A stretch of 64,000 nucleotides of DNA from Methanosarcina flavescens. Its GTDB lineage: Archaea; Halobacteriota; Methanosarcinia; Methanosarcinales; Methanosarcinaceae. Every line of letters begins with the position of its first letter. The stretch's first letter is position 1. Made by a program: the position numbers and the translations under genes. The stretch covers positions 1,488,001-1,552,000 of the forward strand of contig NZ_CP032683.1 of assembly GCF_001304615.2 (NCBI RefSeq). Reading direction: 5' to 3'. Under the pieces are notes generated by a model. The model saw nothing but the letters and a program-made list of their open reading frames with translations. It was not told the origin of the DNA and ran no database searches. Positions 3,627 to 36,249 of the stretch are shown piece after piece.

Positions 3627-4301
3627 TTGTTTTTTGTGCTGTTACTGATGGTACCTATTTTACCCGCTGTTTCGGCTGCATCCAATGCAAATCAAGAAAG
3701 GATTCTGGACTATCCGTGGGACCATTCCCCTATTACTGTATATATAGATAACACCAATGTTCCCGAACACTATAGCCCTACCTATTATACACAGATAGAA
3801 AAGGCTATGGAATACTGGGAGAAAGGAGGAAATGGAAACCTGAAATACAAACCTGTTTTCGAATTTGTTGATTCGAAAGATGCTGATATCAGGATAAAAT
3901 GGGTAGAAAACCTGGAAAGTGTTGAAGGAGCTCCCTCAGGCGTAGCCGGTTATGCAAGCCCCACGGTATCTGATGGGCGATTTGTACGGGTGGATATAGT
4001 TCTTGAGGTCGGAAACTACAAGGGGAAAGCCTGGCGTCAGTACGGGGATGCTACAATGCTCTCTATTGCAAAACACGAATTTGGACATGCCCTCGGCCTG
4101 GGTCACAGCAGCAACAGGCGAGATATAATGTATCCCGAGTATGAGCTGAGAGATAACATAAATCCTCTCCTCCTGAGCAAGTACGGCAATGTACTGCGTC
4201 TAGCAAGTTTTGCAGCTCTGGCAGTTCTCCTCTATCTCGGAGTAAGCTGGCTGCACAGCAGGAAAAAAAGGAAAACACTTGAGGAGAAATATTTCAAGTA
4301 A
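3627..4301 (+). CDS. Membrane-anchored matrixin-like zinc metalloprotease
   Basis: A secreted peptidase of the matrixin/astacin-like (metzincin) type. The zinc site HEFGHALGLGH is at about residues 150-160, with a downstream Met-turn DIMYPEY. The N-terminus is a hydrophobic signal (FFVLLLMVPILPAVSAA), and a C-terminal membrane helix near residues 189-211 is followed by a basic cytosolic tail (RKKRKTLEEK), so the catalytic domain should face outside. The start is uncertain. The only in-frame candidates near the signal peptide are TTG at 3627 and GTG at 3636, neither with a ribosome site. The good GGAGG at 3583-3587 instead points to codon ATA at 3597, from which the signal peptide would read (M)NRNSIYGIKLFFVLLL. 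Confidence 0.78.
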   Translation: MFFVLLLMVPILPAVSAASNANQERILDYPWDHSPITVYIDNTNVPEHYSPTYYTQIEKAMEYWEKGGNGNLKYKPVFEFVDSKDADIRIKWVENLESVEGAPSGVAGYASPTVSDGRFVRVDIVLEVGNYKGKAWRQYGDATMLSIAKHEFGHALGLGHSSNRRDIMYPEYELRDNINPLLLSKYGNVLRLASFAALAVLLYLGVSWLHSRKKRKTLEEKYFK

Positions 4302-4351
4302 ATTTGATTTCAAGTAAATTTTTCTTAAAGTGACCTCAAAGTAAATCTGGA

Positions 4352-4789
4352 TTAAATAGGCAGTTCTGGAGGTTCTTTATTTTCCGTGGCGAATCTCTTA
4401 AAGAATTCTTTGAAATGGTCAGGAAGAGTATCCATTCCCAGGATGTTATTAAGAGAACTCCATGTATATTCCACATGCTCGTGACTCAATTTTACATCAG
4501 CAATAACATATCCTCCATTATATATTATAGCAATTACCTTTTTTTCCGGAAGCTCAAAGGTGGCATATCCTGCGATATCTCCAGGCACGATTGAAATCCC
4601 GGTCTCTTCCCAGACTTCCCGCACAACAGCTTCTTCAAGGGGTTCCCCACGGACCAGCTTTCCCCCTGGCAGATCCCATTTTCCCGGATTGCTGTGAGAG
4701 TTTTCCGACCGCCTGAGAAGCAGGAATTCGCCTTTCTCATTCCGGAGAATGGCATATATAGAAACGATGTAAGGTTTCTCCAGATTCAT
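4352..4789 (-). CDS. Nudix hydrolase
   Basis: A 145-residue Nudix (MutT-like) pyrophosphohydrolase. The Nudix box is complete: GGKLVRGEP followed by EEAVVREVWEETGI, matching Gx5Ex7REUxEExGU, and it lies near residues 40-65. The preceding LRNEKGEFLLLRRSENSHSN is the typical first beta hairpin. The family hydrolyses nucleoside diphosphates linked to another moiety, with Mg2+; ADP-ribose, NADH or oxidised nucleotides are all possible and the sequence does not decide. It is convergent with the upstream protease gene and divergent from the beta-propeller gene. It appears cytosolic and monocistronic. Confidence 0.88.
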   Translation of the reverse strand: MNLEKPYIVSIYAILRNEKGEFLLLRRSENSHSNPGKWDLPGGKLVRGEPLEEAVVREVWEETGISIVPGDIAGYATFELPEKKVIAIIYNGGYVIADVKLSHEHVEYTWSSLNNILGMDTLPDHFKEFFKRFATENKEPPELPI

Positions 4790-5383
4790 ACAATAATATT
4801 TGAGATTACCTGTCTTAAAGACTAGCTCTTTCAGGATTTTCAGGATATGATCCTAAAATCGGTAAATTCTGGGAGAATGGATAATAAATTTATTTTTTCA
4901 AATTAGTAAAAAAAGCATATCTGCCCTTTTAAAAAACATCCAGGAAAAAATAAGAATTTTATTTATTATTTTAAATTATTAATTATTAATTTAAAATATT
5001 AGGTGTTAGCTTAAATCGAAAAATATATATTCTGTACTGCATATAATTTTTTTAGAATTGAAAGGGTAAAATCCATTCTTTCAACCTGGTCTCCTGGAAC
5101 CAGCGAAAAAGCTGAGACTTTTTTTGATCTGTTTTTTTGAATGTCACAGTCACAATTAGGCTCCAGAACTCAGTGCCTTTAGTAGATTAAAAGACTAAGT
5201 TTGAAGATTGTGATTGAAGTTCTAAAAGGTTTTCAGAGTGGAAGCTGAAGGTCTCGTACACCTGAATAGTTGTAAAGAAAATTCTTCCTGCAAATTAGAA
5301 CTCAATGTGCAAAAATGAAAACCGGATTCTGGAACACTTCAAACCAGGGGTAGAAATCCTTTATGGATTAAGGGGTAAGTTAA
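4790..5383. other. Divergent intergenic region with AT hairpin
   Basis: This region separates the Nudix gene from the divergent surface-protein gene. It contains an 11-bp inverted repeat, attttaaatta/taatttaaaat (4968-4997, 8-base loop), and a TATA-like aaaatatatattc near 5019-5031. If that TATA box is used, the surface-protein mRNA has a leader of about 330 bases. The leader holds a small CTGGT/ACCAG stem near 5087-5104 but no reading frame worth reporting. Confidence 0.35.
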
Positions 5384-7768
5384 ATGAAAATTGATAACAG
5401 AACTGTAATTTTCTCTGGAATATTCTTTGTTCTATTTTTGATGACCATAGGGAATGCAACTGCAGGTTCGGAAAGAAACTCAGTTATTTACGAAGACCGG
5501 ATAGTCTGGCAGGATGATAGTAATGGAAATTGGGATATTCAAATGTACAATATTTCCACTTCCGCTAAAATTCAGATCACAAACGATGAGGCAGAGCAGC
5601 AAAATCCTGATATCTACGGCGACAGGATAGTCTGGCAGGATTCCCGCAACGGAGGAAGCGAAAATTACTGGGATCCTCCTGGAAACTGGGATATCTACAT
5701 GTATGATATATCCACACAGAAAGAAATTCAAATCACAACCAACGAATCACATCAGATCAACCCAGCTATTTACGGCGATAAGATCGTATGGCAGGATTCC
5801 CGTAATGGAAACCAGGATATTTACCTGTACGATCTCTCCACTTCCACGGAAATCCGGATAACAAATAATTCGTACGATCAAATTGAGCCTGATATCTACG
5901 AAGATCGGATAGTCTGGGTTGAGGACGGAACAATTTACATGTACAATATCTCTACTTCCACAGAAACTCGGGTCACACCATATTTCTGGGGCGCGGATAG
6001 AGGATCTGGCGAGACTGGGGACTTGAACTATGACGCGTTCATTTACGGAGATAGGATTGTTTCTTCGGCTGAAACAATTGGATCAAACTACATTGTCAAA
6101 CTGTATGATGTCTCTACATCTACTGAAAGAATTATCGGCGAAGCTGGTTATTCAGGCTCGCCGGCTATCTATGAAGATAAGATAGTGTGGAAAGATGGGC
6201 GTAATATATTTGACGTTAGCCGACCAAACGGCGACATTTTCATGTACGATTTATCCACCTCAAAGGAAACCCAGATCACAACCAATACATCAAATCAGGA
6301 GCAACCTGCTATCTATGGGGACAGGATAGTATGGGCGGATGAAAGGAATGCTGAGACTTACGATGACATGTCGGACATCTATATGTACGACCTCTCAACT
6401 TCAAAAGAGACCCGGATTACCACTGTTGCAGAAGAGAAGCTGGCGACAGGTACGGAAACCCGGATTACAACCAATGAAGGAGATCAGGAGCTTCCTTCTA
6501 TCTACGGGGACAGGATAGTATGGAGGGATTGGCGTAATGGAAACCAGCATGACTTTGAAAACGGAGATATCTACATGTATAGTATCTCGACCTCCACGGA
6601 GACCCAGGTAACTCCTAATAAATCGTGCCAGATGAATCCGAATATCTATGGGGATAGAGTGGTATGGGCAGATGATCGCAATGGAAACTGGGACATTTAC
6701 ATGTATGAGCCTTCCACATCCAGAGAGACTCAGATTACTACCAATAAGTCAGACCAGTGGGACCCTGCTATCTATGGAGATAGGATAGTATGGATGGATC
6801 AGCGCAACGAAGGATATGTTGATATTTACATGTATGATCTCAACACCAAAAAGGAAACTCAAATTAGTACCAGCGGATCAGCGTCCAGTCCCGAGATCTA
6901 CGAAGATAAGATAGTTTGGGCAGACGGACGCAACGGATCCAATGTCTACATGTATAACCTTTCTACTCAGAAAGAAACTCAGATCTCCAGCAGTGGATTC
7001 GCAGAGCAACCCGCCGTCTACGAGGACAGGATAGTATGGAAAGATCATCGCAGCGGGTACTGGGATATTTACATGTATGACCTCTCTACTGCGACTGAAA
7101 CTCGAATAACTACCAGAGGAGAAGAGACAGAGGGCCCAGCCATCTACGGGGACAGGATAGTGTGGCGTGAGAACAGAAAGCTTGATAAAGAAAAGTGGGG
7201 ACCGGGAGATATTTACATGTACAATATCTCCACTGCCACTGAAAGTAAAATCAGCAGCACTGGATCAGCAAATTATCCTGCTATCTATGAGAACAGGATA
7301 GTTTGGCAGGACTCCCGCAATGGAAACGAGGATATCTACATGTTTACCCTTGCTTTGGATGAAGTGCCGCCTGTGAATGGAAACGAGACAGAAAATGATA
7401 CAGACAATTGTACTGAGTTTCCAGACAATGAATCCGATGCGGGAACAGATGACGGGACAGACGACGAAACTCAGACTCCAGACAACTGTTCTTCTGAGTT
7501 AACGCCCCTCTACAGGACACTGGCTCTTAAGGAATATGTAGAATGTACATATAAATGCCAGGTCAAAACAAAAACAGAGTTGGCTACCCTTCTGGATACC
7601 TCGATGTGCCACTATGAAAATTGTGACAACGCAAAAGCCGTTTCAATGCTTAAATCCTTCATTCATCTCGCTGAAAAAATGAAGGCATGCAAGCAGATTT
7701 CGGCTGATGAAGCGGATTATATGGTAAGGGAAGCAAAGAAAATAATAGATCAGATCGAGGCAAATTAA
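5384..7768 (+). CDS. Secreted double beta-propeller surface protein
   Basis: A 794-residue exported protein. A signal peptide (IFSGIFFVLFLMTIGNATAG) is followed by 14 repeats of about 40-50 residues. Each has the form xIYGDRIVWQDxRNGNWDIYMYDxSTxxETQIT, the Methanosarcina-type beta-propeller repeat related to TolB/WD40-like blades. Fourteen repeats would make two seven-bladed propellers (about residues 33-655). A T/D/N-rich linker with several NxS/T sequons follows (GNETENDTDNCTEF). The last 90 residues form a helical domain with cysteines (VECTYKCQ, MCHYENCDN). No C-terminal anchor is visible. Repeat 7 is followed by an extra partial unit (ATGTETRITT), a sign of internal duplication. A structural or adhesive envelope role is inferred. 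The start follows an AGGGG ribosome site. Confidence 0.85.
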   Translation: MKIDNRTVIFSGIFFVLFLMTIGNATAGSERNSVIYEDRIVWQDDSNGNWDIQMYNISTSAKIQITNDEAEQQNPDIYGDRIVWQDSRNGGSENYWDPPGNWDIYMYDISTQKEIQITTNESHQINPAIYGDKIVWQDSRNGNQDIYLYDLSTSTEIRITNNSYDQIEPDIYEDRIVWVEDGTIYMYNISTSTETRVTPYFWGADRGSGETGDLNYDAFIYGDRIVSSAETIGSNYIVKLYDVSTSTERIIGEAGYSGSPAIYEDKIVWKDGRNIFDVSRPNGDIFMYDLSTSKETQITTNTSNQEQPAIYGDRIVWADERNAETYDDMSDIYMYDLSTSKETRITTVAEEKLATGTETRITTNEGDQELPSIYGDRIVWRDWRNGNQHDFENGDIYMYSISTSTETQVTPNKSCQMNPNIYGDRVVWADDRNGNWDIYMYEPSTSRETQITTNKSDQWDPAIYGDRIVWMDQRNEGYVDIYMYDLNTKKETQISTSGSASSPEIYEDKIVWADGRNGSNVYMYNLSTQKETQISSSGFAEQPAVYEDRIVWKDHRSGYWDIYMYDLSTATETRITTRGEETEGPAIYGDRIVWRENRKLDKEKWGPGDIYMYNISTATESKISSTGSANYPAIYENRIVWQDSRNGNEDIYMFTLALDEVPPVNGNETENDTDNCTEFPDNESDAGTDDGTDDETQTPDNCSSELTPLYRTLALKEYVECTYKCQVKTKTELATLLDTSMCHYENCDNAKAVSMLKSFIHLAEKMKACKQISADEADYMVREAKKIIDQIEAN

Positions 7769-10539: not shown

Positions 10540-11415
10540 ATGTTTTTACCCAATTCCTTTATAGATGCTCTTGCAGACTATGAGTCTGCTCGTTATGTTA
10601 TCTTCGGTGTGCCTTTTGACAACACCTCTTCTTACAGGGCAGGCAGCCGTTGGGCTCCAGATGCAATGCGGCAGGTTTCTGCAAATTTTGAGAGTTATAA
10701 CCCGACTTTCGACATAGATCTTGTGGACCTACCTATCTATGATGCCGGAAACCTGGAAACCTCAGCCTCGGTTGACGAGACCCTGGAAAACCTCTACGAA
10801 GCTACAAAAGACCTCCTGAAAGATGGAAAGCTTCCCATTATGCTTGGAGGAGAGCATTCCCTGACCTTTGCTATGGCAAAGGCCTGTGCCGAAATTGCAG
10901 GAGAGGATTTCGGAATACTCATTCTGGATGCTCATTTCGACCTGAGGGAAGAGTACAGGGGTTTTAAGCATAACCATGCCTGCGTGTCCAGAAATATTCT
11001 CAATGAGGTTACAGAGAACCTGGTCTCTATAGGCATAAGAAGCGGTCCTGAAGAAGAGTGGGTTTTTGCCAGGGAAAATAACCTGAAATACTATACAGCC
11101 GATGATGTGGAATCCACAGGTATGGTAGAGATCCTTAAAGAAGCTCTCGAATGGCTTGACTGCAGCCAGCTATATCTTTCCCTTGACATGGATGCAATAG
11201 ATCCGGCTTATGCCCCCGGTTTGGGCACGCCTGAACCTTTCGGCCTGAGTGCAAGGGACGTAAGGACTGCAATAAGGACGCTTGCTCCTTTCTCAATGGC
11301 TTTTGATGTTGTAGAAATTGCCCCTGAATATGATTCCGGTCAAACCGCCATGCTCGGGGCGAAACTGATGAGGGAGTTTATTGCTTCCCATGCGAAAAGC
11401 CGTATAAAAGCATAA
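10540..11415 (+). CDS. speB: Agmatinase
   Basis: A 291-residue ureohydrolase (arginase/agmatinase family) with a binuclear manganese centre. Metal-ligand motifs are present in order: GGEHS (about residues 103-107), DAHFD (about 129-133) and SLDMDAIDP (about 213-221). It is likely agmatinase, giving putrescine and urea from agmatine. Archaea lack an arginase-type urea cycle, and the gene sits directly behind aIF5A, whose lysine modification needs a polyamine. The start is the first ATG after the aIF5A terminator. It is cytosolic, with typical family length and no anomalies. Confidence 0.9.
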   Translation: MFLPNSFIDALADYESARYVIFGVPFDNTSSYRAGSRWAPDAMRQVSANFESYNPTFDIDLVDLPIYDAGNLETSASVDETLENLYEATKDLLKDGKLPIMLGGEHSLTFAMAKACAEIAGEDFGILILDAHFDLREEYRGFKHNHACVSRNILNEVTENLVSIGIRSGPEEEWVFARENNLKYYTADDVESTGMVEILKEALEWLDCSQLYLSLDMDAIDPAYAPGLGTPEPFGLSARDVRTAIRTLAPFSMAFDVVEIAPEYDSGQTAMLGAKLMREFIASHAKSRIKA

Positions 11416-30621: not shown

Positions 30622-31836
30622 TTACTCATATCTCAAAGCATCCACAGGATTCATGCGTGCAGCCTTTCTTGCAGGATATAAGCCAGCAGTTATCCCCACA
30701 AGGATAGAAATTACAATCCCGATTTCAATCAACTTTAAGGGGAAAACTGGAGGAAGATCAAGGGCACTCTCAAGAGCATAAGCTCCCAAACCACCGATTA
30801 CAGTGCCTACAATCCCTCCAAAGAGACTGACCATCACAGATTCCAGCAAGAAAAGGGATAGAATATTGGAATTGCTGTAACCTACAGATTTCATTATCCC
30901 GATTTCTCTCGTTCTTTCAGTTACGGTTACAAGCATAATATTCATAATTCCTATTGAACCCACTAAGAGAGATATCAGGGCAAGAGCCAGCAGGAAAGAG
31001 TTCAAAGCATCTCCAATTATTCCTGTTTGTTCAAGAACTTCCTCCTGATTAAAGACGTAATAGGGTTTTGAATCCTCGTCACCAATTTCTCTTTCCGGAA
31101 CTCCGAAATTCCGGGCTAATCTTCTATCCACTTCATCTGAAATATCACGAACTTTCTCAGGACTGTCCGCCATTGCAAGGAAAGCTCCATAGTCTTTTTC
31201 CCCGATCATCTCATTCATAGTGGAAATGGGAATGAAAACTGTCAAATCGTAGTCACTGTCCTGACTTACAACCGTTGGCTCGGAATCTTTCAATACCCCT
31301 TTTACCTTAAAGGATTTCGTCACAAGAGTGCCGTCTTCCTGTCGAAAAGCAATTTTCACAGTGCTTCTATGAGAGATTTTCTTACTGAACTCCTCGTTTG
31401 CAATATTGTATCCAAGGACAGCAGCAAAGCTGTCTTTATCCGATAGAAAAGTACCTTTTTCCATTTGCAGACCCTGGATCTCCTGAAAATCTTCATTGAT
31501 CCCTGCAACATTGACACTTTTAGTTTCTGAAAGATACGTTAGATCTCCACTCATTGTCTTTCTGGGAGATACGCCTGTAATCCCTGGAGTGTTCTTCATA
31601 AGATTATACTCATTATCAAAGAAGAGATTTGGCTGCTTGCTAGCTGCAATAATAAAGTTAGAGCCTACAGAAGAAATCTCATCAGTAAAAAACTGATTAA
31701 AGCTAGCACCAAGGGATGCATTAACAACTACGGCGGCTACACCGATTACTATTCCTAACGTCGTAAGCGCAGACCTTAGCTTAGCGCTTCCTATGCTCCC
31801 AGATGCTATACGAACTGCCTGTGCAAATTTTATCAT
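30622..31836 (-). CDS. MacB-type ABC permease
   Basis: A roughly 404-residue permease of the MacB/FtsX class with four membrane helices. The first follows SAKLRSALTTLGIVIGVAAVVV, then comes a large extracellular MacB_PCD domain of about 210 residues, then three helices near residues 280-400 including LVGSIGIMNIMLVTVTERTR and the EIGIMKSVGYS coupling region. It ends GLYPARKAARMNPVDALRYE, the classic C-terminus of the family. It forms a mechanotransmission or export complex with the ATPase and surface protein upstream. The start is ATG 31836, close behind GGGGTGG; ATG 31848 is possible. Confidence 0.88.
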   Translation of the reverse strand: MIKFAQAVRIASGSIGSAKLRSALTTLGIVIGVAAVVVNASLGASFNQFFTDEISSVGSNFIIAASKQPNLFFDNEYNLMKNTPGITGVSPRKTMSGDLTYLSETKSVNVAGINEDFQEIQGLQMEKGTFLSDKDSFAAVLGYNIANEEFSKKISHRSTVKIAFRQEDGTLVTKSFKVKGVLKDSEPTVVSQDSDYDLTVFIPISTMNEMIGEKDYGAFLAMADSPEKVRDISDEVDRRLARNFGVPEREIGDEDSKPYYVFNQEEVLEQTGIIGDALNSFLLALALISLLVGSIGIMNIMLVTVTERTREIGIMKSVGYSNSNILSLFLLESVMVSLFGGIVGTVIGGLGAYALESALDLPPVFPLKLIEIGIVISILVGITAGLYPARKAARMNPVDALRYE

Positions 31837-31877
31837 ATCCCACCCCATAAATATGATGGTCAGTTGACTTTTTCTGA

Positions 31878-33119
31878 TTAATGTTTTCTTCTTCTGTAGA
31901 ACAAGAAGGCTGCGGGAACAGCAATTATGATAAGTCCGCCTGCCAGTACGGCTTTTGGACTAGATTCCGTAGATCCCGAAACATTTGTAAAGTTCAGATT
32001 GCCTACAGTATTTACATGCCTGTTGATCCCATTATTGTAATTTGCAGTGAGACTCATGTTTGTCCCTTTCTCGCTTCTGGGATTCCATGAATCATCTGCC
32101 ACTGCGTTGAATTCGATAGTAAAGAGTTCGTCCGGATTCATTGGTCCTATGAAATATTCAGCAGGGAAAAATCTTATACCCTCAGCTTCGGGTTTTATGC
32201 TTACCGAATTAAACTCGTTAGGATGAGTGTTTGCAACATCAAATTCAATTGTGGATTTTCCATCGATCATTGTAAGTTCCTTTGAAGGGATTACCTTTAT
32301 GTTTGAAGAGTCGACCTTTAGAGCAATGTTCTTTCTGCTATTGTAATCGAAGGAGTTACCCTCTATTGCGAGTTCAAGATTATGAGTTCCGTCTGTAGCT
32401 TCCTCTGTAACCTTTACATTGAAGGTCAGCTTGATACTGTCTCCAGGCCCCAGAATACCCATATCCCCGTAGGGGGCGTCAAGCACAACTATCCCGTCAG
32501 ATAAAGGCCTTAAAACCGCAGCCTGAATTCGGGCATTGGTATCAAAATCATTTCCGCCAATAGTAACAGTCGGGGTGGTTGCAGTGTTAGTGAGAGTTAC
32601 AGTGATTGTACCCCTGTCCCCTGGCATGAAAACCTGAGGCTCCGAAACGACTTCCTTAAGTTCAACTGTACCTTTGCTGTTAAACGTTTCAGTACCTATT
32701 CGTATATCAAAACTTTTCTCACTCCAGGGACTGTCTTTACCAGTTTTTGTACGGATATCAATAGAACGTACACCTTTCTGTGCATTTTTGTCTACAAAAA
32801 GATGAAATTCCTTTGTAGCAGTCCTGCCAGGATTGAGGACTCCAACGTTCTTTACAGCATTTGCCTGGGAATCAAGAGAGAAAGGATATTGAGGTACGAT
32901 TTCTATATCAACATTGTCAGCTTTATCCCCTCCGATATTCTCCACCTGAACGGTTAGGGTCAGGTATTCTCCTATTTTTGCAGGATAGGGATTTGTCTCG
33001 ACTATTGTAACTTTCAGGTTGGCTCCCCCAACAGCTGCACAGGCAGGAACTGCAAAAAGAGAGGAAATCAACAGTAGAGAAAAAAATGTTGCTATAATAT
33101 TCTTCTTAATCATTTGCAT
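31878..33119 (-). CDS. COG1361-type exported protein (copy A)
   Basis: A 413-residue secreted and membrane-anchored protein. The signal peptide (IIATFFSLLLISSLFAVPACA) is followed by the same CARDB-like domains as copy B and a C-terminal helix (AVLAGGLIIIAVPAAFLFY) with a basic RRRKH end. It lies between its ABC ATPase and permease and may play the part that MacA or another extracytoplasmic partner plays in bacterial MacB systems. The start at 33119 has GGTGG six bases upstream. Over about 900 bp the DNA is nearly identical to copy B, while the last roughly 60 codons are diverged, which points to recent duplication or gene conversion. Confidence 0.84.
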   Translation of the reverse strand: MQMIKKNIIATFFSLLLISSLFAVPACAAVGGANLKVTIVETNPYPAKIGEYLTLTVQVENIGGDKADNVDIEIVPQYPFSLDSQANAVKNVGVLNPGRTATKEFHLFVDKNAQKGVRSIDIRTKTGKDSPWSEKSFDIRIGTETFNSKGTVELKEVVSEPQVFMPGDRGTITVTLTNTATTPTVTIGGNDFDTNARIQAAVLRPLSDGIVVLDAPYGDMGILGPGDSIKLTFNVKVTEEATDGTHNLELAIEGNSFDYNSRKNIALKVDSSNIKVIPSKELTMIDGKSTIEFDVANTHPNEFNSVSIKPEAEGIRFFPAEYFIGPMNPDELFTIEFNAVADDSWNPRSEKGTNMSLTANYNNGINRHVNTVGNLNFTNVSGSTESSPKAVLAGGLIIIAVPAAFLFYRRRKH

Positions 33120-33131
33120 ATACTTCCACCT

Positions 33132-33839
33132 TCAATTGTATTGAATTATTCCATCCTTTACCAGGATAACTCTATCAGCATATTTTGCAATCTCAGGGTC
33201 GTGTGTAACGATTACTATTGTTCTTCCTTCCATGCTCAAATCCATAAATATTCGAAGGATTTCGGCTCCTGTTCTGGAGTCGAGGTTTCCAGTCGGCTCA
33301 TCTGCAAGAAGAATCGCTGGGTCATTAATAAGTGCACGTGCGATTGAGACCCTCTGTGACTGACCTCCTGAAAGCTCTCCCGGCTTATGGTGCATCCTGT
33401 CCTCCAGCCCCATAATTTCAAGGAGTTCCCTTGCACGCTTTTTTGGATCGATACTACCTCTATAGTTGGCAAAAGTAGGGAGCAAAACATTCTCAAGAGC
33501 AGTCAGGCGCGGAACAAGATTAAAAGTTTGAAAAACAAAACCTATCTCAAGCCCCCGAAGGCGAGCAAGCTCCTGATCTGACATTCTATTTAGATCCCTT
33601 CCCCTTACAAGAACCTGCCCTTCGGTAGGCTTGTCAAGGCAACCTATAAGGTTCACAAGAGTACTCTTTCCGGAGCCAGATGGACCCATAATAGCTAGGA
33701 ATTCTCCCCGTTCAATTTTAAGATTGATATCTGAGAGAACGGGAATCTCCAAATTCCCAAGTACATAGGTTTTCCTGACATTGGAAACTTCGACAATAGG
33801 AAGTCCGTCATCAGGCAAACTATTTTTGTTAATATTCAC
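33132..33839 (-). CDS. MacB/LolD-type ABC ATPase (copy A)
   Basis: A 235-residue ABC ATPase of the MacB class with [36 protein letters not shown] and VTHD. It heads the complete three-gene operon (ATPase, COG1361 protein, permease) on the minus strand with gaps of 12 and about 40 bases. The GTG start at 33839 lies very close to a GGGGG ribosome site. It lacks the N-terminal extension of copy B; the remaining protein is highly similar to copy B. Substrate unknown; peptides, lipoproteins or other envelope components are possible for this class. Confidence 0.88.
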   Translation of the reverse strand: MNINKNSLPDDGLPIVEVSNVRKTYVLGNLEIPVLSDINLKIERGEFLAIMGPSGSGKSTLVNLIGCLDKPTEGQVLVRGRDLNRMSDQELARLRGLEIGFVFQTFNLVPRLTALENVLLPTFANYRGSIDPKKRARELLEIMGLEDRMHHKPGELSGGQSQRVSIARALINDPAILLADEPTGNLDSRTGAEILRIFMDLSMEGRTIVIVTHDPEIAKYADRVILVKDGIIQYN

Positions 33840-34643
33840 TTCCCCCTGTCACAAAGTTACTGAAATGTGATAGAAGAATCACATTGAATAATCTCAATGT
33901 TTTTACTAATTATGTAAGACAGTCCATTTTAACTTATGCTTTATTAATTTTCGCCAGAAGTTCTCATATAGAGGTATAGATATTGATTATTTGCATTGAG
34001 TGCAATGTTTCGAAATGGATCTACAAAAATATCATGAAATATTCAGCTTCCCACTTTATATAGATTTGATCAATATAAAATTAATTACTTTGCGAAAAAA
34101 TATTGAAAATATAGTTAGTTAAAACAGAGACAGTGAGAACAGATAGCAGTAATTACTTCATTAGACAGGGGCTTTTTTAGAAAATTTATAACTGTTTCCT
34201 TGGATTAACCTTCATAAATTTACATTGTATTATTTATAAAGATTTCATAAAAGTCACTTGCAGACTTAGAATAGTTAAACCAATCATTTCAAATATTTTT
34301 TTATTAATACTGGGAAAACAGTCTAATATTTATATTAAAGTGTGAATAAACTCTAAACTTTTAAACATTATATAATTCTAAAAAATATATGGGTGTATGT
34401 AGAAACTTTACTCTAAACATTTAGAAACTATTATTCATAAGGAAATTAAATTCTATTGAGCTTATATAACTTGCTTTATATAGCTATATACAGTCACTGT
34501 TAGCTAAAATTTCAAACGGTGTATCTCAAAATAAGAGAAAACGCATCATAGAATATTGATAAGTGGCTGACAGGGACCTCGAAAAATGTACCATCTACAG
34601 TATACAGATATTGATATAAACATGAGATATGGAGGGAATAGAA
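33840..34643. other. AT-rich region upstream of the small-peptide array
   Basis: About 800 bases with no conventional gene. A TATA-like tgctttatatagc near 34472-34484 could drive the small-peptide genes that begin at 34644, giving a leader of about 135 bases. Confidence 0.4.
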
Positions 34644-34718
34644 GTGATCTTCACATTCAACTTTAGTCAATTGTTCGCATTCATGAACAATTTCTGCTTC
34701 TCAATCAAACTGTGGTAA
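34644..34718 (+). CDS. Small aromatic-rich peptide, copy 0
   Basis: A 24-residue peptide starts with GTG, seven bases after a perfect GGAGGG ribosome site (34631-34636). It reads MIFTFNFSQLFAF then MNNFCFSIKLW, with seven phenylalanines and a tryptophan. Aligned without gaps to the array peptides it shares M1, I2, F5, S8, F19 and conservative changes at positions 3, 4, 7, 9 and 10, so I take it as a diverged member of the same family. No homologue of known function is recognised. Function unknown. Confidence 0.55.
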   Translation: MIFTFNFSQLFAFMNNFCFSIKLW

Positions 34719-34841
34719 CTGAATTTCTAAAGCGGAAGAGAATAGGTCTCTACGGAGAATGGTCATAAGGCCTTATACTCCTATTGCAAAAGACCGGGTA
34801 TAACGAGGGTTGAACAATCAAGAAAGGAGTGAGGGATTGAA

Positions 34842-34919
34842 ATGATCCTAAGTTTCGAATATTCAAAGATTACAAAGTTCTTCCAGGCAGAATGCTTCAA
34901 ATTCTTCTACTGCTTCTAA
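34842..34919 (+). CDS. Small aromatic-rich peptide, copy 1
   Basis: A 25-residue peptide, MILSFEYSKITKFF then QAECFKFFYCF, preceded by AAAGGAGTGAGG ending about 8 bases before the ATG. It differs from copies 2-4 only at residues 13 (F for I) and 18 (C for V). Upstream DNA shows weaker similarity to that of copy 2 over about 80 bases, so the ancestral repeat unit was longer, near 187 bp. A third of the residues are aromatic and the net charge is about +1. Confidence 0.6.
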   Translation: MILSFEYSKITKFFQAECFKFFYCF

Positions 34920-35028
34920 ATAAGCTGTGAAGAAATGGGTTCTGCAGGGGAGATGAGTTATAAACCCAATTGCATAACCGGGATGTAACGTAGGACGAAC
35001 AAAATAGAGAAAGGAGTGAGGGATTGAA

Positions 35029-35106
35029 ATGATCTTAAGTTTCGAATATTCAAAGATTACAAAGATCTTCCAGGCAGAAGTTTTCAAATTCTTCTACTGC
35101 TTCTAA
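35029..35106 (+). CDS. Small aromatic-rich peptide, copy 2
   Basis: A 25-residue peptide beginning MILSFEYSKITKIFQAEV and ending FKFFYCF, in the first of three perfect 129-bp tandem units. Each unit carries its own ribosome site, start, peptide and stop, which argues for selection on gene dosage of the peptide or of its RNA. The conserved pattern within the family is YxKxTxxxQxxxFKxxY. It is amphipathic but too short and charged for a standard membrane helix. Function unknown. Confidence 0.62.
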   Translation: MILSFEYSKITKIFQAEVFKFFYCF

Positions 35107-35157
35107 ATAGGATGTAACGTAGGACGAACAAAATAGAGAAAGGAGTGAGGGATTGAA

Positions 35158-35235
35158 ATGATCTTAAGTTTCGAATATTCAAAGATTACAAAGATCTTCC
35201 AGGCAGAAGTTTTCAAATTCTTCTACTGCTTCTAA
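35158..35235 (+). CDS. Small aromatic-rich peptide, copy 3
   Basis: Identical to copies 2 and 4 in both DNA and protein (25 residues, MILSFEYSKITK...). It lies exactly 129 bases after copy 2. The ribosome site is again GGAGTGAGG, 7-8 bases before the ATG. Confidence 0.62.
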   Translation: MILSFEYSKITKIFQAEVFKFFYCF

Positions 35236-35286
35236 ATAGGATGTAACGTAGGACGAACAAAATAGAGAAAGGAGTGAGGGATTGAA

Positions 35287-35364
35287 ATGATCTTAAGTTT
35301 CGAATATTCAAAGATTACAAAGATCTTCCAGGCAGAAGTTTTCAAATTCTTCTACTGCTTCTAA
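35287..35364 (+). CDS. Small aromatic-rich peptide, copy 4
   Basis: Last unit of the perfect tandem array, identical to copies 2 and 3. It stops 36 bases before a strong hairpin terminator (35401-35431), so the array probably ends as one transcript from the upstream promoter. Confidence 0.62.
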   Translation: MILSFEYSKITKIFQAEVFKFFYCF

Positions 35365-35400
35365 ATAGGCAGTGTTTGGATGAAGAGATAATAAGAATAT

Positions 35401-35431
35401 ATGAAGTTGCCTGCCCTTCGGGCAACTTCAT
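35401..35431 (+). terminator. Terminator of the small-peptide array
   Basis: An 11-bp perfect stem, atgaagttgcc and ggcaacttcat, with a 9-base loop (35401-35431) is followed by cttt. An alternative inner TGCCC-TTC-GGGCA hairpin is also possible. It is the strongest hairpin in this AT-rich area. Confidence 0.7.
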
Positions 35432-36135
35432 CTTTACAAAATAAATATAATATTACCACTTTTCTACTTACTTTTTATTTTCTAATTGCTAACTCTTTTT
35501 AATAACGCTGTGATTCTGAACAAACTTATTGAGATATTAAAAAGAAACAGCGGTAAGGTTTCAGATTGGTTATGAGGGCCCTAAATTTGGGGAAAAATAA
35601 TATTTTTAGAACATTATGGCTTCTGAAGGGACAATTTACCCCAGAGAAGTTAAAATTAAATTTAAAAAACGAGATGCTGGGAAATCTCATATGATAATTA
35701 CAGCAAAAACTTCTGTTTCCAAATATTGGAAAACTATTATTTGTAAGGAGTTGTCATTCCTCACGTTATATGTAAATTGATAGTATACCTTAGTATTGAT
35801 GCTTATATGTGAATTAAAATAGACTATCCTGATTATATTTTTTCAGGTTATCTATATAATATTCTGTAAGAGCATATATACAATCCAGATATAAGATTAA
35901 AGATACTTTAGATCCTTAAATCTTTTAGCTGGAAATATCCAAAATTGTTTATACCTCCCTGCAATCCCAAAAATTGGTTTCCGAGGGTATAACTTGGGAG
36001 TATAATAAAAATGGGAATTGAAGGAGGTTTGGAGAAAGCAGATCATATCCAAGAGATCCGAAAGTTGAGTTAAGTAAGTAGGAAACCATCAATTGAGTGA
36101 GGATAAACAAAACTACAATACTGGAGGGAATTACA
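35432..36135. other. AT-rich region between the array and the downstream peptide gene
   Basis: About 700 bases. A 54-codon frame at 35616-35780 is listed separately with low confidence. The rest contains no clear gene; the AT-rich stretch at 35870-36010 probably holds the promoter for the peptide gene at 36136. Confidence 0.35.
35616..35780 (+). CDS. Possible 54-residue basic protein
   Basis: An ATG-initiated frame encodes a lysine-rich protein (MASEGTIYPREVKIKFKKRD...). It has no visible ribosome site and no recognised homologue. The amino-acid composition is less biased than random AT-rich DNA would give, but this is weak support. It could be a remnant of a longer gene. Confidence 0.22.
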   Translation: MASEGTIYPREVKIKFKKRDAGKSHMIITAKTSVSKYWKTIICKELSFLTLYVN

Positions 36136-36249
36136 ATGTTCTACTATATAAGTTATACAAAAGTCACAGTGCTTGTACAGATAATAAAGTTTAAGTTGAT
36201 CTATATTGGCGGCCAGGGTTTTGGCGGCTTTGGAAGATTCCTCAGATGA
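36136..36249 (+). CDS. Small peptide related to the array, with glycine-rich tail
   Basis: A 37-residue peptide starts 7 bases after GGAGGG (36123-36128). Its first 23 residues, MFYYISYTKVTVLVQ then IIKFKLIY, align without gaps to the array peptides with identities at Y7, K9, T11, Q15, F19, K20 and Y23 and conservative changes at 8, 10, 13, 21 and 22. A new tail, IGGQGFGGFGRFLR, is rich in glycine and arginine. Spacing and ribosome site match copy 0 (tggagggaat in both). It is the best evidence that the array peptides are a real protein family. Confidence 0.6.
   Translation: MFYYISYTKVTVLVQIIKFKLIYIGGQGFGGFGRFLR

Follow-up and report, generated by a model that had tools for sequence, protein, structure and literature searches.

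Staphylococcal phenol-soluble modulin operons encode tandem, leaderless amphipathic peptides of 20-25 aa that are exported by ABC transporters. Near-identical repeats in the E. coli Ldr/Rdl and Ibs/Sib loci give rise to several short hydrophobic peptides (PMC4147584), and bacterial leaderless clusters can carry several copies of one peptide gene, sometimes beside ABC genes of the lipoprotein-export type, with predicted peptides that average 50 aa and a mean charge of +4.63 (PMC11580447). Among archaea, the small proteins of M. mazei include sP26, which binds glutamine synthetase, and sP36, which binds AmtB1 (PMC11456600). The open literature searched holds nothing on the locus described here and no such tandem arrays for Methanosarcina; the putative M. 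mazei sequences of the locus are in no open paper text within that search.

In this work, we show a genus-conserved locus made of two units, A-Bn and C, which carry one type of promoter element and are predicted to encode very short leaderless peptides. With Ldr/Rdl and Ibs/Sib it shares short, on average hydrophobic peptides encoded in near-identical repeats, but those systems have an antisense RNA per repeat, whereas the Methanosarcina array has apparently one promoter and no enriched antisense signal. Leaderless bacteriocin clusters (aureocin A53-like, Bacillus) resemble it in the missing leader, the multi-copy operon and, in some, the ABC genes nearby; their peptides, however, are ~50 aa long with a charge of about +4.6, whereas A and B are mostly 24-31 aa, about neutral and not cationic, and only C (+3.4) is clearly positive. 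As for the ABC and PH components of such clusters, an ABC module lies beside 22 of 24 loci and is absent or distant in two, and no PH-domain protein was found among the neighbours scanned. Phenol-soluble modulin operons, compared by architecture, are not known to have the fixed A/B/C split and the twin promoter. The M. mazei proteins sP26, sP36 and sORF_05 have the genus in common with our locus and belong to small proteins that are largely unannotated, but the available sections of that source describe no tandem arrays (PMC11456600). None of the known kinds tested fits the locus, either by sequence or by full architecture.

Layout of the array

The window is the whole 64-kb stretch of DNA that was analysed (positions 1488001-1552000 of the source genome, a single contig of 3,283,688 bp). 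Its relevant features, in window coordinates, are as follows.

30622..31848, minus strand: MacB/FtsX-type permease, part of a MacB/Lol-type ABC module
31878..33119, minus strand: NEW3/CARDB-domain protein, part of the same module
33132..33839, minus strand: MacB/LolD-type ABC ATPase, divergent neighbour of the array
34426..34443, plus strand: promoter element 1, AACTATTATTCATAAGGA, upstream of A; its only exact twin in the genome is at 35732
34462-34469 and 34475-34483, plus strand: TATA-like boxes after element 1, TTATATAA and TTTATATAG
34500..34643, plus strand: putative 5' leader of the array transcript, from an inferred start site, with conserved blocks CAGTCACTG ... AAGTGGCTGACAG
34644..34718, plus strand: peptide A, GTG start, 24 aa, MIFTFNFSQLFAFMNNFCFSIKLW; a separate family with an alternating hydrophobic pattern
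34842..34919, plus strand: peptide B1, ATG start, 25 aa, MILSFEYSKITKFFQAECFKFFYCF
34981..35369, plus strand: three perfect 129-bp tandem units, identical to one another (TRF score 778, 100% match)
35029..35106, plus strand: peptide B2, ATG start, 25 aa, MILSFEYSKITKIFQAEVFKFFYCF
35158..35235, plus strand: peptide B3, ATG start, 25 aa, same as B2
35287..35364, plus strand: peptide B4, ATG start, 25 aa, same as B2
35403..35429, plus strand: 3' hairpin GAAGTTGCC...GGCAACTTC, then ATCTTT, which closes the array
35732..35749, plus strand: promoter element 2, AACTATTATTTGTAAGGA, upstream of C, with a TATA-like box at 35766-35772
36136..36249, plus strand: peptide C, ATG start, 37 aa, MFYYISYTKVTVLVQIIKFKLIYIGGQGFGGFGRFLR, behind a GGAGGG site; a B-like core with a Gly-rich tail

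The first-pass annotation had reported five short frames in one direction behind strong ribosome sites, and these are the frames of A and B1 to B4, each preceded by GGAGGG or AAGGAGTGAGG. They are also the sole frames in the whole 64-kb window, on either strand, to pass a scan for aromatic-rich short frames (strongly SD-preceded, 18-45 aa, at least 28% aromatic residues). Direct comparison and TRF agree with the three perfect 129-bp units described earlier, B1 is indeed two residues off from the other 25-aa copies (5 nt differences), and the closing hairpin is found at 35403-35429. The 129-bp unit is what remains of a 187-bp unit when a 58-nt spacer segment is removed, and thus looks like a derived form that probably arose by recent local amplification; the 187-bp unit is retained here at B1-B2 and nearly throughout the array of the closest relative. 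New relative to that annotation are the split between A and B, peptide C, the twin promoter element, the synteny across the genus and the replacement of peptide families in some species.

Peptide families and their conservation in Methanosarcina

Of 112 Methanosarcinaceae genomes searched at the DNA level, 18 yielded the array, every one of them a Methanosarcina, while profiles of B and C each reach ~22 Methanosarcina genomes at low E-values, without stops inside the matches and with no convincing match outside the genus. A homologous locus is present in 21 Methanosarcina genomes, the source genome included, and follows one plan throughout: one to three copies of A, two to seven copies of B, a hairpin, and C ~1 kb further on. 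The array order is ABBABBABB in a putative M. mazei genome. The copy number of B changes between species, and several arrays hold near-identical copies. Seven of the 31 genus genomes (G080, G087, G090, G093, G095, G096 and G098) yielded no array, and four of these are ~99% complete. A solitary B-type peptide, MILRIFYSKVCVSYESTRFFIFYSD, was seen at a second chromosomal site in one genome (G076:C2:109421; L059 9422-9499), with no class 1 promoter element found in the stretch around it.

Frameshifts and stops were looked for in all homologues, and the 128 frames of the 21 loci (79 B, 21 C and 28 A, of which 27 came via the profile and one, in G082, by eye) include no interrupted one. Because the pairs compared are not independent, the Nei-Gojobori dN/dS values are descriptive, namely 0.39 for B between genomes and 0.36 within arrays, 0.16-0.41 for C, and a looser, noisy 0.11-0.81 by length class for A; the contrast with the same B alignments read in the other two frames, where the control ratio is 1.1-1.2, is clear nonetheless. 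Change in the peptide codons is thus synonymous-biased, and the open frames together with purifying selection back the earlier proposal of real, dosage-amplified small-peptide genes over a simple repeat. From this genome comparison, we regard A, B and C as well-supported coding frames, and the genes look translated.

The peptides are on average hydrophobic, with an aromatic share of 23-33%, and across the genus they measure roughly 24-44 residues; their genes are unannotated. Their frames start at conserved positions without a leader-like extension, which points to leaderless products. None of the three has a match in Pfam or NCBIfam, the array has none in Rfam, and a plasmid match looked for with C was not found. 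Profiles and composition set out three families:

(i) A is a peptide of its own. The frame at 34644 had been taken for a diverged 25-aa copy ("copy 0"), a reading ruled out by profile comparison, which found no relation between A and B; A is, moreover, conserved separately in relatives. The family has a GRAVY of 1.14, a mean net charge of -0.83 and a strong hydrophobic alternation (moment 0.47 at 180 degrees vs 0.16 shuffled).

(ii) B has a GRAVY of 0.55, a mean net charge of +0.25 and Glu and Lys residues throughout, so it does not look like a plain hydrophobic membrane span. It was tested for an alternating (beta) pattern, and none was found.

(iii) C combines the B core with a Gly-rich tail, and profile comparison relates the two over 23 columns (E 1.4e-4). 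Its GRAVY is 0.50 and its mean net charge is +3.4. Among the window peptides, only C is long enough for AlphaFold, which predicts a helix over residues 2-27 with moderate confidence (mean pLDDT 71), in a size range where peptides are predicted poorly. Neither this helix nor the alternation in A is firm at such short lengths.

Promoter elements, genomic slot and replacement in place

The 18-nt element reads RACTATTATTYRTAAGGA, followed by TTC(T/C) and then a TATA-like box. Without mismatch it occurs at exactly two sites in the source genome, before A and before C, and all 21 loci have one element ~220-300 nt before A and another ~400-580 nt before C. Matches in the 31 genus genomes scanned are almost confined to the A-Bn/C loci, and we consider the paired putative promoters of A-Bn and C well supported by this pattern. 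Neither strand is TATA-rich inside the arrays and a sense TATA-like site is missing from the interior of most of them, so that one promoter probably serves all A-Bn copies.

An exact extra copy of the element was observed on a 58-kb replicon of G104, where the genes behind it encode a hexapeptide-repeat transferase and a GH18 glycosidase, not peptides (L148, G104:C1:30000-42000; genes at 5153-5854 and 3941-4984, minus strand). The reverse complement of L148 also has, at 10637-11352, 77-nt repeats in tandem, in which a GTG frame, METCFYSDGNYHIYIEQIH, follows GAGTGAAACC; these could be a CRISPR-like or other repeat instead of genes.

Three RNA features of the locus were compared across genomes. 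The blocks of the 5' leader are conserved in an alignment of 20 loci, yet RNAalifold gives only a weak consensus structure of about -4.8 kcal/mol over the alignment, and a structured leader was set aside. The hairpin after the last B, a putative terminator, is retained in 20 of 21 loci with 99.2% of pair cells standard; its covariation is in no excess over shuffles, a comparison that adds little since the stem hardly varies. Spacers between B copies are ~107-154 nt in most species and tend toward a hairpin, which is energetically favoured in several species and varies on both sides in 3 of 8 consensus pairs; its total support is weak, and neither the 129-bp unit nor the other short units contain the segment.

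Turning to the slot, 22 of 24 loci (the 21 homologous ones and three replaced or relocated versions in G099, G091 and G085), among them all 21 homologous ones, are divergent from the ATPase, the NEW3 protein and, where the contig reaches, the permease of the MacB/Lol-type ABC module. The array of G085 lies away from the module and that of G091 is without a detected NEW3 partner, which makes the link suggestive and not obligatory. Since 100 of the 112 family genomes have the NEW3 partner, the module predates the peptides; by its position, it is a possible exporter of them. No immunity-type gene was recognised. A link to glnA, which lies ~6-8 kb from the locus in the source genome, was also considered and rejected: the acetivorans/mazei group showed no glnA close to the array, and the linkage is not conserved throughout the genus.

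In some species, other peptides occupy the place of the usual ones. G099 has four tandem 32-aa MFDTLIGIGNFAIQTATGNAFIAQIIGQWTWV-like peptides in the usual slot, then one peptide that is B/C-like and one that is C-like, each unit being preceded by a diverged promoter element; G091 has, where a contig ends, an A-like peptide and a MTYLGFNFQCLKTNLDMTRARVIQSTD-like one in two copies; and G085 has a relocated, strongly diverged set. From these loci it appears that the peptide families evolve fast and are at times replaced, while promoter and slot persist. Two genomes of a sister genus, G006 and G009, have tandem 21-aa peptides, e.g., MLDFLIFAFNTFAYSFFQFFM, in this slot next to the ABC module, and a family-wide search found no Methanosarcina-type promoter element in these arrays. 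Their pattern is MLDFLIFAFN.F..S.FQF.. at a period of ~133 nt (L131 6093-8943 and L132 5873-9522, both on the minus strand).

With up to one mismatch allowed, 19 of 31 genomes match a related promoter class, TATTAATNNTAAGGANNNTTTATTCT, and none matches its reversed control. Variants of this class precede other tandem small-peptide arrays in several genomes (B relatives, or Gly/Cys/Trp-rich) and, in the source genome, small Gly/Cys/Trp-rich frames. The class was also seen before an alpha/beta hydrolase and glycogen debranching enzyme, a catalase region and an HD-domain protein (L155, L165, L167, L166). Its position before glycogen-debranching and catalase-region genes suggests a programme of the stress or stationary-phase type, and it may define a Methanosarcina regulon of that kind. 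More SD-preceded small peptides, Gly/Cys/Trp-rich or aromatic, were noticed at G000:C1:2878118 (L168) and G000:C1:3230670 (L172), and likewise in L153, L154, L157, L158 and L162, some in tandem and several behind the related class. The sequence MCCGFGFNNWGWGFRHRFWGRGCGCGWGGGCGGWGGC occurs twice in a putative M. acetivorans genome, and the L153 peptide set adjoins a class I tRNA synthetase and an MptE-like gene.

Possible roles of the peptides

Our leading, tentative reading, to which we give somewhat less than an even chance, is that of a co-regulated, dosage-amplified set of leaderless peptides active at the membrane or envelope and possibly exported by the ABC module. A signal of the stress or stationary-phase type would lead each promoter to drive one transcript, whose many strong ribosome sites would yield small aromatic peptides at a high dose and without any need for processing. 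The peptides would insert into or assemble at the membrane or envelope, the adjacent MacB/Lol-type module might export them, and their target would be the cell surface or cells nearby, in keeping with bacterial multi-copy leaderless peptide clusters. The ABC neighbour at 22 of 24 loci, the analogous array in the sister genus and the hydrophobic, aromatic character of the peptides favour envelope action and export, as does the occurrence of ABC genes beside some multi-copy bacterial clusters (PMC11580447). Against this reading count the two loci that break the ABC link (G085, G091), the greater age of the NEW3 partner, the lack of a recognised immunity-type gene, the nearly neutral charge of A and B, unlike that of typical cationic leaderless bacteriocins, and dN/dS values below 1, which give no sign of an arms race.

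The peptides might instead remain inside the cell as small-protein regulators, each binding a membrane or metabolic protein, with copy number setting the dosage. M. mazei makes hundreds of small proteins, some of them partner-binding (PMC11456600), the locus of the source genome is ~6-8 kb from glnA, and C is predicted as one long helix. The glnA synteny is, however, missing near the array in the acetivorans/mazei group, no NrpR-like operator was recognised at either promoter, and the replacement of whole families in place (G099, G091) would be unexpected for one conserved partner. We hold this role to be rather unlikely.

Less probable again is structural self-assembly, in which stress would lead to bulk production of A, B and C as the units of an envelope, an aggregate or an amyloid-like layer. 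The strict alternation in A and the Gly-rich tail of C would suit such a layer, as would the Gly/Cys/Trp-rich peptides of other arrays under the related promoter, and a bulk need accords with tandem amplification. B, however, has no beta pattern, C is modelled as helical, with the caution due to short peptides, and a secretion signal is absent.

The first-pass annotation had likened the array to Ldr/Rdl or Ibs/Sib, i.e., to a type I toxin-antitoxin array of toxic membrane peptides silenced by antisense RNA. The analogy draws on the shortness and hydrophobicity of the peptides, on tandem copies that are alike in length and on a long 5' leader before A, but it did not hold up: antisense TATA-like sites number 4 against 11.1 expected over 21 arrays (a consensus scan, with which a weak promoter or a trans-acting RNA would be compatible), all copies seem to depend on a single promoter, B and C are only mildly hydrophobic and charged, and nearly all genomes keep a single syntenic slot. 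With its antisense promoter signal not enriched, a toxin-antitoxin array was rejected as very improbable. We consider least probable of all a locus that acts as RNA (sRNA or attenuator) with incidental frames, because frame-specific purifying selection with zero interruptions, the loss of the spacer hairpin segment from 129-bp and other short units and the missing Rfam match weigh more than the conserved 5' leader blocks, the conserved 3' hairpin and the hairpins formed by the spacers of many units.

The envelope-active peptide set is therefore placed ahead of intracellular regulators, and these ahead of structural assembly, while type I toxin-antitoxin and pure RNA functions are disfavoured. 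In its widest form, which we put forward about as tentatively, this would be a new archaeal peptide system in which promoters and slot are fixed and the cassette family is amplified, diversified or replaced, within a wider stress- and glycogen-co-controlled regulon of the genus, made of aromatic- and Gly/Cys-rich peptide arrays, that would serve surface assembly or inter-archaeal competition or signalling. If action like that of leaderless bacteriocins holds, the locus would be a variant of that known kind.

Of all that archaeal genomes encode, small proteins are known least, and for Methanosarcina both genetic tools and ribosome-profiling data exist. Since model species carry the locus, the system is directly testable, and its promoter element is distinctive enough to fish out the regulator. 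If the peptides act at the surface, they would be among the few archaeal systems comparable to bacterial peptide toxins, modulins and signals. The swapping of families behind a constant promoter offers, in turn, a natural case of micro-genes arising in place.
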